Assembly (NCBI GenBank): GCA_011523655.1 | Contig: WTGH01000033.1 | Span: 1 to 64,000 of the forward strand | DNA from: Rhodospirillaceae bacterium | GTDB lineage: Bacteria > Pseudomonadota > Alphaproteobacteria > Bin65 | Reading direction: 5' to 3' | Length of the DNA stretch: 64,000 nucleotides | Shown: piece by piece, positions 1 through 6,186 of the stretch | How positions within the stretch are numbered: position 1 is the stretch's first letter | Layout of the letters: each line of letters starts with the position of its first letter | The notes under the pieces: model-generated | Told to the model about the DNA's origin: nothing | The model's input: the letters and a program-made list of their open reading frames with translations, nothing else | Databases searched by the model: none | Program-made: the position numbers and the translations under genes

Positions 1-232
1 CGCCGCCGCCGCGCGGTTCTGGGCGGTCGGCATCGGCGCGCTGATCGCCGTCGCCACCTCGGTTGCGATGTTCTCGAGCCTGAGCGGCCTTCTCCTCTCC
101 TACCATTTCAGCCTGCCTTCCGGGCCGGCGATCATTCTCGTCGCGGGTCTCGCCTACGCGCTGTCGCTGATCTTCGGACCGGTGGGCGGTCTCGCCGGGC
201 GGGCCTTCCCGCGCCGCTATCTCGAAGCCTGA
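1..232 (+). CDS. Metal ABC transporter permease, C-terminal fragment
   Basis: The reading frame is open from the window edge (codons begin at base 2) to TGA at 230-232, giving about 76 C-terminal residues. Two strongly hydrophobic stretches (around WAVGIGALIAVATSV and AIILVAGLAYALSLIFG) and a short basic tail ending RRYLEA fit the last membrane spans of an ABC-3 family (ZnuB/MntB-like) inner-membrane permease. The stop lies 11 bases before the start of the metal-binding protein gene, and the permease stop overlaps that gene's Shine-Dalgarno (AAAGGAG), so the two are almost certainly one operon. The start and the ATPase gene are outside the window. The family assignment rests mainly on hydrophobicity and the neighbour. 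Confidence 0.75.
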   Translation, partial: AAAARFWAVGIGALIAVATSVAMFSSLSGLLLSYHFSLPSGPAIILVAGLAYALSLIFGPVGGLAGRAFPRRYLEA

Positions 233-243
233 AAGGAGTTCCG

Positions 244-1236
244 ATGCCCGCGCGCAGAGCGTTTCTGATTTCCGCCACCGCCGCCCTGGCCCTGTCATAC
301 GCCCTGTCATTCGCCCTGGCGCCCGCCGGTCCGGCCGCCGCACAGACCGGCAGACCGATCCCGGTTGTCGCCACCTTCTCGATCCTCGGCGACATGGTGA
401 AGCGCATCGGCGGCGAGCACGTCGCCGTCACGACGCTCGTCGGCCCCGACGGGGATACCCATGTCTACCGGCCGACCCCTGCCGACGCGCGGGCGGTCAG
501 CGAAGCGAAGATCCTCGTCGTCAACGGGCTGCAGTTCGAAGGCTGGCTGGACCGCCTGATCGACGCTTCGGACTTCCGCGGCGTCCGGGTGGTGGCGACC
601 GACGGAATCGAGCCGATCGCTTTCGAGGAGGGCGGCCACGATGATCACGCCGGGCACGCCGGGCACGCCGGGCACGCCGGGCACGAAGGCCATGGCCACG
701 ACCACGGCGCCTTCGACCCCCATGCGTGGCAGAGCGTCCGCAATGCGACGGTGTATGCACACAACATCGCCGTGGCGCTGGCGAAGGCCGATCCGGCAAA
801 GGCCGGCGCGTTCGACCGCAATCGCGCGGCCTATCTGGACAGGCTTGAGGCCCTCGACGCGGAGATCGACAGGATCGTCGCCAAGCTTCCCGCAGGGCGC
901 CGGACCGTCGTCACCTCCCACGACGCGTTCCAGTATTTCGGCCGCCGATACGGGCTGACATTCATCGCGCCGCAGGGGCTCAGCACCGAGTCGGAGGCGT
1001 CGGCAAAAGATGTCGCCCGGCTGGTCCGGCAGATCCGCGCAGAAGGCATTCGCGCCGTCTTCGTCGAGAACATAACCGATTCCCGGCTCCTGACGCGCAT
1101 CGCGGAGGAGACGGGCGCCAGGATCGGCGGCACGCTCTATCCCGGCGCCCTGTCCGGCCCCGACGGTCCGGCGCCGACCTATCTCGACATGATGCGCCAC
1201 AACGCGAAGACGATCGCGAAAGCGCTGGCGCCGTGA
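244..1236 (+). CDS. znuA: Zn/Mn ABC transporter periplasmic binding protein (ZnuA/TroA-like)
   Basis: A 330-aa cluster-9 solute-binding protein that should capture Zn(II) or Mn(II) in the periplasm and deliver it to the permease encoded just upstream. A Sec signal peptide covers about residues 1-34, ending near PAAAQT. Candidate metal ligands are the His in DTHVYRPTPAD, in FDPHAWQSV and in TSHDAFQYFG, plus the acidic site near VENITDSR. Between the first two is a His-rich loop (about residues 128-160) built from AGH repeats, typical of zinc-binding ZnuA proteins. At DNA level the loop contains four near-identical 9-bp units around 646-680. The strong AAAGGAG at 231-237 supports this ATG. Zn rather than Mn is favoured by the loop but not proven. 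Confidence 0.88.
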   Translation: MPARRAFLISATAALALSYALSFALAPAGPAAAQTGRPIPVVATFSILGDMVKRIGGEHVAVTTLVGPDGDTHVYRPTPADARAVSEAKILVVNGLQFEGWLDRLIDASDFRGVRVVATDGIEPIAFEEGGHDDHAGHAGHAGHAGHEGHGHDHGAFDPHAWQSVRNATVYAHNIAVALAKADPAKAGAFDRNRAAYLDRLEALDAEIDRIVAKLPAGRRTVVTSHDAFQYFGRRYGLTFIAPQGLSTESEASAKDVARLVRQIRAEGIRAVFVENITDSRLLTRIAEETGARIGGTLYPGALSGPDGPAPTYLDMMRHNAKTIAKALAP

Positions 1237-1340
1237 GCCGGCCGGCGGCCCCCCGGCCGTCGTCGTGCCGGCGCGCGCGAGGGATCGAGGCCAAAGGCGC
1301 GGCAGGGCCGGGAATATCCGGGGGACCGCCGTCTGCATGT

Positions 1341-1370
1341 GTCATGAAATGTCATGATTCGTCATGATTC
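1341..1370. repeat. Three tandem 10-bp GTCATG repeats, array 1
   Basis: Three perfectly abutting 10-mers are seen: GTCATGAAAT, GTCATGATTC and GTCATGATTC. The 10-bp period matches about one DNA helical turn, as in direct-repeat sites of OmpR/PhoB-class response regulators. The core TGTCAT resembles the half-site of the Pho box, but the classic Pho box has an 11-bp period. Confidence 0.8.
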
Positions 1371-1623
1371 GTGGCGGTATCCTCCTCCGTTGCGCATGAG
1401 CGGCCCGGCCTCAAGGCTGAGACAGACCGGTCTATTTTTCCTGTTTTTTTCGCCGCCGGTCCGCTTTTTTCCGGCACGGAATTCGCAGAAATCCGCCATT
1501 TTGGTTCCGGCCGCTGTGCGGAAAAAAAGCATACTATGTATAATTTCCCAGCTTGTCCGCTTCGGACGGCCGCGCAGTTGCGGCGGCGGGGCTGCCGCGC
1601 CAGAGAGGTGGTTTCCGGCAGGC

Positions 1624-1653
1624 GTCATGAATTGTCATGGTCCGTCACGATGC
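1624..1653. repeat. Three tandem 10-bp GTCATG repeats, array 2
   Basis: The 10-mers GTCATGAATT, GTCATGGTCC and GTCACGATGC lie end to end in the same orientation and phase as the array at 1341-1370. The third unit is diverged at one core position. Confidence 0.75.
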
Positions 1654-1695
1654 ACCCCGATCCGGCGTCCGTTCCGCCCGTTGCCCCTGCCGGAT

Positions 1696-1715
1696 GTCAG
1701 GAAATGTCATGGTCC
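1696..1715. repeat. Two tandem 10-bp GTCATG repeats, array 3
   Basis: The 10-mers GTCAGGAAAT and GTCATGGTCC repeat the pattern of the two upstream arrays. The array ends 64 bp before the TATAAT at 1779-1784 that could serve the small gene at 1979. Confidence 0.7.
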
Positions 1716-1978
1716 GCCCCGGCCCCGCCTTTCCGGTCCCGCCCTTCCGGCCCCACTGGCCAAAGGCACATTTGTTCATATAATGTTCCATACAGGCCTG
1801 TCAAGCGGTTTTTCCGGCCCGGCCCGCCCGGCCCTTGCGCGAGGCAGGCGGCGGCGCCGTCAAAGGGTGCGGCGCCGAAAGCCTCTCGCGAAAGAAAATT
1901 CGGGACTCCTCCGGGCGGTGCGCCGGTCCGGAGTTTCACCGATTGACCTCGCTGGTCCGCGGGGGCTATCGTCACGGC

Positions 1979-2218
1979 ATGAACTTCGCCCCGGACACCT
2001 ATGCGATTATCGGCACGATCCTTGCCGTGGGCTTCGCCCTGGCCGGCATGGGCTGGCACATGGCAAGCCGCCTCGACAAACGGATCAGCGAAGACAGGGC
2101 CGCTGCCGAAGCGGACCGGCGGCAATGGCAGGCCTCCATGGACGCCTTCCGGCAGGAAATGCTGCGCCTTGCCGAACGGCAGTCCCATATCGAAGGCCGG
2201 ATCGAAGCGGCCGAATAA
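1979..2218 (+). CDS. Small single-span membrane protein with coiled-coil tail
   Basis: A 79-aa product of no family I recognise. Residues about 8-28 (AIIGTILAVGFALAGMGWHM) form one transmembrane helix. The rest (about 30-79) is rich in Glu, Arg, Gln and Ala with heptad-like spacing, ending HIEGRIEAAE, so a short cytoplasmic coiled coil is likely. The frame is open further upstream to 1835, but the ATG at 1979 gives the hydrophobic N-terminus expected for such a protein. The upstream extension is low-complexity and basic and is probably not translated. The protein stands alone between the repeat region and the 3' end of dnaE, which is convergent. Function unknown. Confidence 0.6.
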   Translation: MNFAPDTYAIIGTILAVGFALAGMGWHMASRLDKRISEDRAAAEADRRQWQASMDAFRQEMLRLAERQSHIEGRIEAAE

Positions 2219-2289
2219 CCGCCACCCTGCGCCGCTTCGCGGTGCGCCGGCCGCCCGGCGTTCAAGCGACAACCGGCGCCCGCCCCCCA

Positions 2290-5760
<3,471 letters not shown>

Positions 5761-5896
5761 GGGTGGTCCGGCGCGGCGCAACGAATTCGGATGAGTGGCG
5801 GCGCAAGCCTACACCCATTCCTCGCGCTGCGCGCCGCCCGCGCGCATCGTCAGCGCAGATTCCGGGGGATTATTCGGTGGAAAAGCCGGGGTTAAG

Positions 5897-6186
5897 CCGG
5901 ATTTCTCACAAGACTTGTCGCCCCGGCCGCCGAGCCGGGGCCCAGAGCCACAGGGTAAAGCGACGGATACGGGTCCGGGCGACGGCAAAGACCCGCGGCG
6001 CGGCGCGGCTTCGATTGCAGGGCTGCGAAACCCCAGCCGCCCATCTCTGAGCGCACCGCCCGTCGTGCGACTCTGGTCCCCGGATCGGGGGCCGGGGTAA
6101 CATGGTTCTTTATGCTAACCCGTTATCGTGAAACAATTTTCTTGCACACAAGTCTTGGACGCCCCGATTTCTTGTGAGAAATCCGG
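5897..6186. mobile_element. MITE-like element with 17-bp terminal inverted repeats
   Basis: The 17-mer CCGGATTTCTCACAAGA at 5897-5913 recurs as an exact reverse complement at 6170-6186, bounding 290 bp with no coding capacity. A second inverted pair (CAAGACTTG at 5909-5917, CAAGTCTTG at 6150-6158) lies inside. The interior carries degenerate arms (CCGGGGCCCAGAGCC, and ACTCTGGTCCCCGGATCG) related to the repeat at 52255-52359. Small size, perfect ends and no transposase fit a non-autonomous miniature element. The right end stops one base from the lolD stop codon, so it may also act as a transcription terminator. No clear target-site duplication was seen. Confidence 0.6.

Follow-up and report, generated by a model that had tools for sequence, protein, structure and literature searches.

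The short direct repeats to the right of znuA in the window (the whole analysed stretch of 64,000 nucleotides, from the genome designated G000) belong to a dispersed family of strictly phased GTCATG arrays of one polarity. We consider it rather probable that these arrays are the protein-bound borders of noncoding cassettes that are gained, lost and exchanged by recombination at the arrays. The modules between the arrays recur at other loci, the GTCATG core is under selection, and orthologous loci differ by whole modules, with many breakpoints at the arrays.

The array cluster next to znuA

On the + strand of the window three arrays comprise eight units of 10 bp, six with an exact GTCATG and two with one mismatch. 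The cluster starts 105 bp past the stop of znuA (244-1236, identified by a PF01297 match) with array 1 (1341-1366; GTCATG-AAAT-GTCATG-ATTC-GTCATG, then ATTC), which has three exact units and forms the left border. It is followed on the same strand by module M1 (1367-1623, 257 bp), a member of a dispersed family that is found between arrays at other loci as well. M1 contains a AGACCGGTCT palindrome (1424-1433) with T tracts after it, which recurs in M1 copies elsewhere and which we take to be TetR-operator-like. Array 2 (1624-1649, + strand; GTCATG-AATT-GTCATG-GTCC-GTCACG, with one mismatch in the third unit) is separated from array 3 (1696-1711, + strand; GTCAGG-AAAT-GTCATG, then GTCC, with one mismatch in the first unit) by a slot of 46 bp (1650-1695) that has no relatives among 111 slots. 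The right end of the cluster carries an SOS-type box GTTC-N7-GTTC (GTTCATATAATGTTC, 1774-1788), overlapped on the - strand by a putative leftward promoter, TTGACA-N16-TATATG (1777-1804). Tandem Repeats Finder reports only 1351-1372 as an array in this region.

An earlier note on this DNA had described eight units of exactly 10 bp in three arrays of one orientation, located in a gene-free region. Phase and strand were right, but GTCATG is exact in only six of the eight units and the AATT spacer had been missed; no known gene lies between znuA and the ORF at 1979, as the note had said. This ORF (1979-2218, 79 aa) to the right of the arrays has no Pfam match; dnaE comes next, on the opposite strand. 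Two tandem copies of the same small ORF are present in G001 (L231:3288-3870), and it is absent beside dnaE in G002. Within znuA itself, at 646-685, an in-frame 9-bp tandem repeat CACGCCGGG adds a His-rich stretch.

Distribution of the arrays

The number of arrays is far beyond chance. In the 4,272,420 bases (70 contigs) of G000 the triple pattern GTCATGN4GTCATGN4GTCATG occurs 34 times against 0 for the reversed control, and the pair pattern 86 times against 0; the matches group into about 29 intergenic clusters. Such a scan for the triple repeat and its flanking genes had been envisaged in the earlier note, and no recurring flanking gene family came out of it.

Within the genus, six of the seven species (the window's own included) carry 24-36 triples and G006 carries none, and no triples were found in 4 genomes from other genera of the family or in 50 genomes of the class. 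Among 385 genomes sampled from the class, 8 matched, namely four of the window's genus, G372 and three genomes with a single match. G372, which belongs to another family, has 106 triples, and 30-108 triples are present in seven of the eight species of its genus; none were found in six genomes from the other genera of that family, which brings the count for other genera of both families together to 0 of 10 genomes with arrays. A scan of named genomes gave, among the matches listed, for instance 'Rhodospirillaceae bacterium Spongia_Bin9'; apart from the one with Spongia in its title, several array-bearing MAGs presumably originate from sponges as well.

In G000-G005 and G391-G393 many of the arrays are found near contig ends, at a distance of about 1 kb or less, as though assemblies tended to break at the clusters. 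Among the matches listed there were also Dyadobacter and similar genomes (L105, L139, L113, L192) with intergenic decamer arrays of their own, of the GTCATGNGTT / CATGACAANN type, which at some loci point both ways and may represent a separate adoption of the GTCATG core.

A phased, polar and conserved separator

Phase and polarity were determined over 101 loci of G000-G004, each with at least one exact pair. Copies of GTCATG less than 46 bp apart were spaced by 10 bp (333 pairs), 20 bp (158) or 30 bp (28), with any other distance occurring at most four times; all 333 neighbouring pairs were in the forward orientation and none were opposite. Where two exact units were 20 bp apart, the one between them was itself exact in 150 of 158 cases and GTCAGG in 6. 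The 4-bp spacers vary, AAAT being the commonest first and ATTC the commonest second spacer. Most arrays have 2-4 units, with three units in 116 of 214, and a solitary array is found in 28 of the 101 loci. The Pho box consists of TGTCA half-sites with a period of about 11 bp, and the resemblance to it that the earlier note had seen breaks down on this point, all 333 neighbouring pairs being spaced by 10 bp.

In orthologous arrays (25 chosen pairs, 40 alignments) mismatches amounted to 8/487 in the core, 33/221 in the spacers and 194/1634 in the 40-bp flanks. The comparison (Fisher p 3e-11 for core against spacers) is somewhat biased in favour of the core, as the array of one species had to be exact, with changes in the other species still being counted. 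A near-invariant hexamer between changing spacers and flanks indicates that something reads the GTCATG core. Together with the exact phase and the polarity, this selection on the core suggests that a protein sits along a single face of the helix.

The second clade shows the same separator: distances again peak at 10, 20 and 30 bp, all 98 middle units are exact, and pairs in both orientations occur at only one of 72 loci (L169). Its modules are mostly different and many slots measure just 15-30 bp.

Modules between the arrays

We found 111 inter-array slots in 72 loci, with a median length of 194 bp, and in 93 of them the module belongs to a family that is also found at non-orthologous loci. 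Modules begin directly after GTCATG. M1 is characterized by the AGACCGGTCT palindrome and T tracts, M2 and M3 by REP-like hairpin cores and M4 by C-rich/G-rich hairpins. The best matches between non-orthologous slots were on the same strand in 674 cases and on the opposite strand in 195, the latter at least partly because the cores come close to being palindromes and a number of M3 cores seem to be inverted; M3 cores do occur in both orientations. M3 is found in the six array-bearing genomes of the genus and not in G006, G372 or G295, and near-identical copies (94% over 213 bp) occupy the non-orthologous loci L062 and L335. The M2 core has 46 matches in G000, most of them array-free; array-associated copies reach the array-adjacent ends, whereas most free copies lack these ends.

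Whole-module differences at orthologous loci

Next to znuA the window shows the order array-M1-array-46 bp-array, G001 array-M2-array-M1-array, G002 array-M3-array-M1, and G003 array-M2-array with a diverged M1-like part. Array 1 of the window aligns to both M2-flanking arrays in G001 and to both M3-flanking arrays in G002. The arrays are therefore neither unique to the window nor lost from relatives that keep the flanks, an outcome that would have spoken for the chance repeats considered in the earlier note; in G004 they are absent and a CobW-like gene (recognised by eye) follows znuA. A close znuA match was not found in G005 and G006.

Differences of entire modules were seen not only at this locus (window/L231/L232) but also between L068 and L334 (one M3 slot more), L069 and L265 (M1 and M2 more or fewer), L063 and L244 (M4 versus M3 in the same slot) and L073 and L245 (a different first slot), with L060/L235/L247/L362 and L077/L240/L267/L259 as further loci. 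Other loci, L071/L333 and L080/L266, are unchanged between species. In 32 chosen pairs with 63 breakpoints, the nearest array is at most 2 bp away for 24 breakpoints and at most 15 bp away for 37, against means of 10.0 and 18.8 for random placement, the observed values never being reached in 5000 draws; local alignments often stop at the edges of conserved islands, which inflates the count near arrays, and several breakpoints are well away from any array, by as much as 147 bp.

Six array features were compared with the family of the module on the right, orthologues being retained. The last spacer of the left array was associated with it (in 2 of 2000 within-genome shuffles the observed value was reached), and the five other features showed no association. 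A last spacer that travels with the module is expected if exchange falls inside the arrays. The two arrays flanking a module were identical in 4 of 64 cases, compared with 8.7% for random pairs from the same genome, so that fresh duplications are not seen; a model in which the arrays are target-site duplications was rejected on the same grounds.

The SOS-type box at the right end

GTTC-N7-GTTC boxes, mostly GTTCATATAATGTTC, number 35 and are spread over 33 of 61 loci, all of them to the right of an array. Most boxes are followed after 9-12 bp by TGTCAAG, which in the window reads TTGACA-N16-TATATG on the opposite strand and would provide the right end of the cluster with a leftward promoter facing the arrays, as far as the sequence can tell. 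A consensus promoter scan, which needs a final T, did not return this candidate and gave TGGCCA-N16-TATAAT on the + strand (1757-1784) instead. GTTC-N7-GTTC is, we assume, the alphaproteobacterial SOS box consensus, and its presence about 95 bp upstream of the recA start in G000 (L369:2436-2450) supports calling it an SOS box. The box was not found in 28 of the 61 loci, and the exact box occurs in none of the 72 loci of the second clade.

G000 has 23 sites of the GTTCATATAATGTTC type with at most one mismatch, against 0 for the reversed sequence, and 13 of these are in array clusters. Several of the sites outside clusters are in array-free elements with the AGACCGGTCT palindrome. L271, L276, L281, L286 and L288, for instance, are array-free dispersed elements with an SOS-type box less than 100 bp from a AGACCGGTCT-like palindrome.

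Gene context and search for an enzyme

Genes were called with a self-trained caller, and 61 of 63 clusters were free of overlap with them. The gene to the left was on the + strand in 30 cases, on the - strand in 30 and of unknown strand in one, and the flanking pairs were convergent in 15 cases, divergent in 12, tandem in 27 and incomplete in 7. No gene family was found as a regular neighbour of the clusters. This lack of bias in strand or neighbour family makes the arrays unlike operator sites for particular genes. There was no signal of replication polarity either, the GC skew on the array strand being positive in 39 of 95 loci.

Integrase-like genes were noticed by eye near only a few loci (L076, L082 and L356), and a visual check of the five intervals in which arrays are over 700 bp apart turned up no transposase gene. 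Y1_Tnp is present in 4 of 13 genomes and absent from the array-rich G000, G001, G003, G005 and G372. Tyrosine recombinases number 2-33 per genome, occur in array-free genomes too and are too widespread to single out a linked enzyme. Three tyrosine-recombinase domains in a row were observed in G000 (C20:63668-66046), with similar runs in G001, G295 and others.

Proposed mechanism and alternative explanations

We propose that a putative protein contacts one GTCATG per helical turn, always from the same side of the helix, and that the arrays would delimit noncoding cassettes of about 20-600 bp, usually 120-250 bp. Clusters take the form array-(module-array)n, often with a putative SOS-type promoter at the right end that would face the arrays, and recombination at the arrays would lead to gain, loss and exchange of cassettes, the modules moving as units with their polarity kept. 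The binding protein, recombination at the arrays as the process and any SOS control are what we infer from the anatomy and the comparisons given above. In a modest version RecA-type recombination at the 26-46-bp arrays may be enough. The bold version, which we regard as speculative, holds that two unrelated alphaproteobacterial genera possess a dedicated recombinase which is guided by a protein polymerised on the arrays and shuffles intergenic modules of a regulatory or structural kind, with SOS-type control over the process. The free M2 and M3 cores, the M3 cores in both orientations, the flanking arrays that resemble each other no more than random pairs do, the unchanged loci, the breakpoints far from arrays, the alignment bias and the failure to find a binding protein, a recombinase or a recurring neighbour gene count against the cassette reading.

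Several of these observations would also fit with arrays that are conserved sites for a nucleoid protein or global regulator, between which REP-like repeats pile up harmlessly and where differences between orthologues are ordinary insertion and deletion. Selection on the core, M2 and M3 cores that are also array-free, flanking arrays that are not near-identical and the existence of solitary arrays all agree with this explanation. We nevertheless give it a limited chance, since array-associated M2 copies reach the array-adjacent ends that most free copies lack, slot changes swap entire modules, a single array of the window matches two arrays in relatives, which carry an additional module, and the last spacer accompanies the module. 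The earlier note had instead suggested that a response regulator of the PhoB/OmpR family binds cooperatively and controls the adjacent ORF at 1979, taken to be a small membrane protein. A cooperative, sequence-specific protein does fit the strict 10-bp phase and the conserved core of these TGTCAT-like direct repeats, and this part of the proposal survives. The control of the ORF does not: G002 has arrays at the orthologous site but not the ORF, there is no bias to gene starts or strands, modules sit between arrays and genes, and with the period of 10 rather than 11 this makes the response-regulator model as a whole very improbable.

The single polarity, the modules that start immediately past GTCATG and the REP-like hairpin cores are also reminiscent of HUH/Y1 single-strand transposition, by which hairpin modules would insert 3' of GTCATG in one orientation, as in IS200/IS605 and REP elements; with Y1_Tnp missing from five array-rich genomes we give it slightly less room than the response regulator, although an enzyme may have been present in the past. 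Least probable of all, with a very slim chance, appears a noncoding RNA that is transcribed leftward from an SOS-type promoter through arrays and modules and in which the CAUGAC arrays would be protein-binding sites. That every box lies on the right side of an array, with TGTCAAG after most of them, and that recA has such a box are in line with it, but the boxless loci, the lack of the exact box in the second clade and the putative nature of the promoter are not. Rfam gave zero matches across window 1-6000, which argues against a known RNA where the earlier note had considered an unannotated one; a new RNA is possible.

Relation to known systems

Neither the array sequence nor such an element was found in the literature searched, partly by title or start of abstract, so that absence in print is not proven. 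In integrons, recombination sites of one polarity separate mobile units and a LexA-type box is present at one end of the array. The GTCATG clusters share the separators of one polarity between units and the SOS/LexA-type box at one end, but their modules are noncoding, phased direct repeats take the place of attC hairpins, and they have no regular integrase neighbour. On cassette excision or insertion by a site-specific recombinase, the comparisons give footprints between species. With the Pho box they share direct repeats and a TGTCA-like core, but not the period or an association with neighbouring promoters, and they differ from IS200/IS605 or RAYT-REP systems in that the Y1 transposase is missing from the five array-rich genomes named above.

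The closest known kinds are the neisserial intergenic mosaic elements (NIMEs) and the STAR elements. NIMEs, according to PMC3898611, combine dRS3 (20 bp, almost 700 copies) with families of RS elements of 30-160 bp into intergenic arrays of 200-2700 bp, for which recombination at dRS3 was proposed; NIMEs are also treated in PMC3046118, and small variable segments are the subject of PMC2884548. Here too a short repeat separates recurring element families in intergenic DNA (93 of 111 slots, and 61 of 63 clusters gene-free). However, dRS3 is described in PMC3898611 as an inverted repeat, ATTCCC-N8-GGGAAT, whereas the GTCATG separator is (GTCATGNNNN)n with 2-6 direct units of one polarity, phased and under selection, its modules are unrelated alphaproteobacterial sequences and many clusters close with an SOS-type box. 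The arrays work like a NIME but are not one, because the separator differs in sequence and symmetry. The STAR elements of staphylococci likewise consist of intergenic short direct repeats with at least 40 bp of recurring sequence and are stable at their loci, and PMC3532100 states that no function is known. Their 14-bp GC-rich repeat, T(G/A/T)TGTTG(G/T)GGCCC(C/A) in the same text, differs from the GTCATG unit, and their positions are not conserved across species, whereas GTCATG arrays are often orthologous with the modules between them changing.

Intergenic mosaic repeats are known in few bacteria and what holds such mosaics together is mostly unknown. With a sharp, selected and phased separator the binding protein can be searched for, and the orthologous loci of several species allow gains and losses of modules to be assigned to individual arrays. 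Should recombination take place at the arrays, these bacteria would swap noncoding modules much as integrons swap genes. A dedicated system, if it exists, would be an integron-like system for intergenic DNA, and through exchange of this kind regulatory variation would arise in uncultured symbionts.
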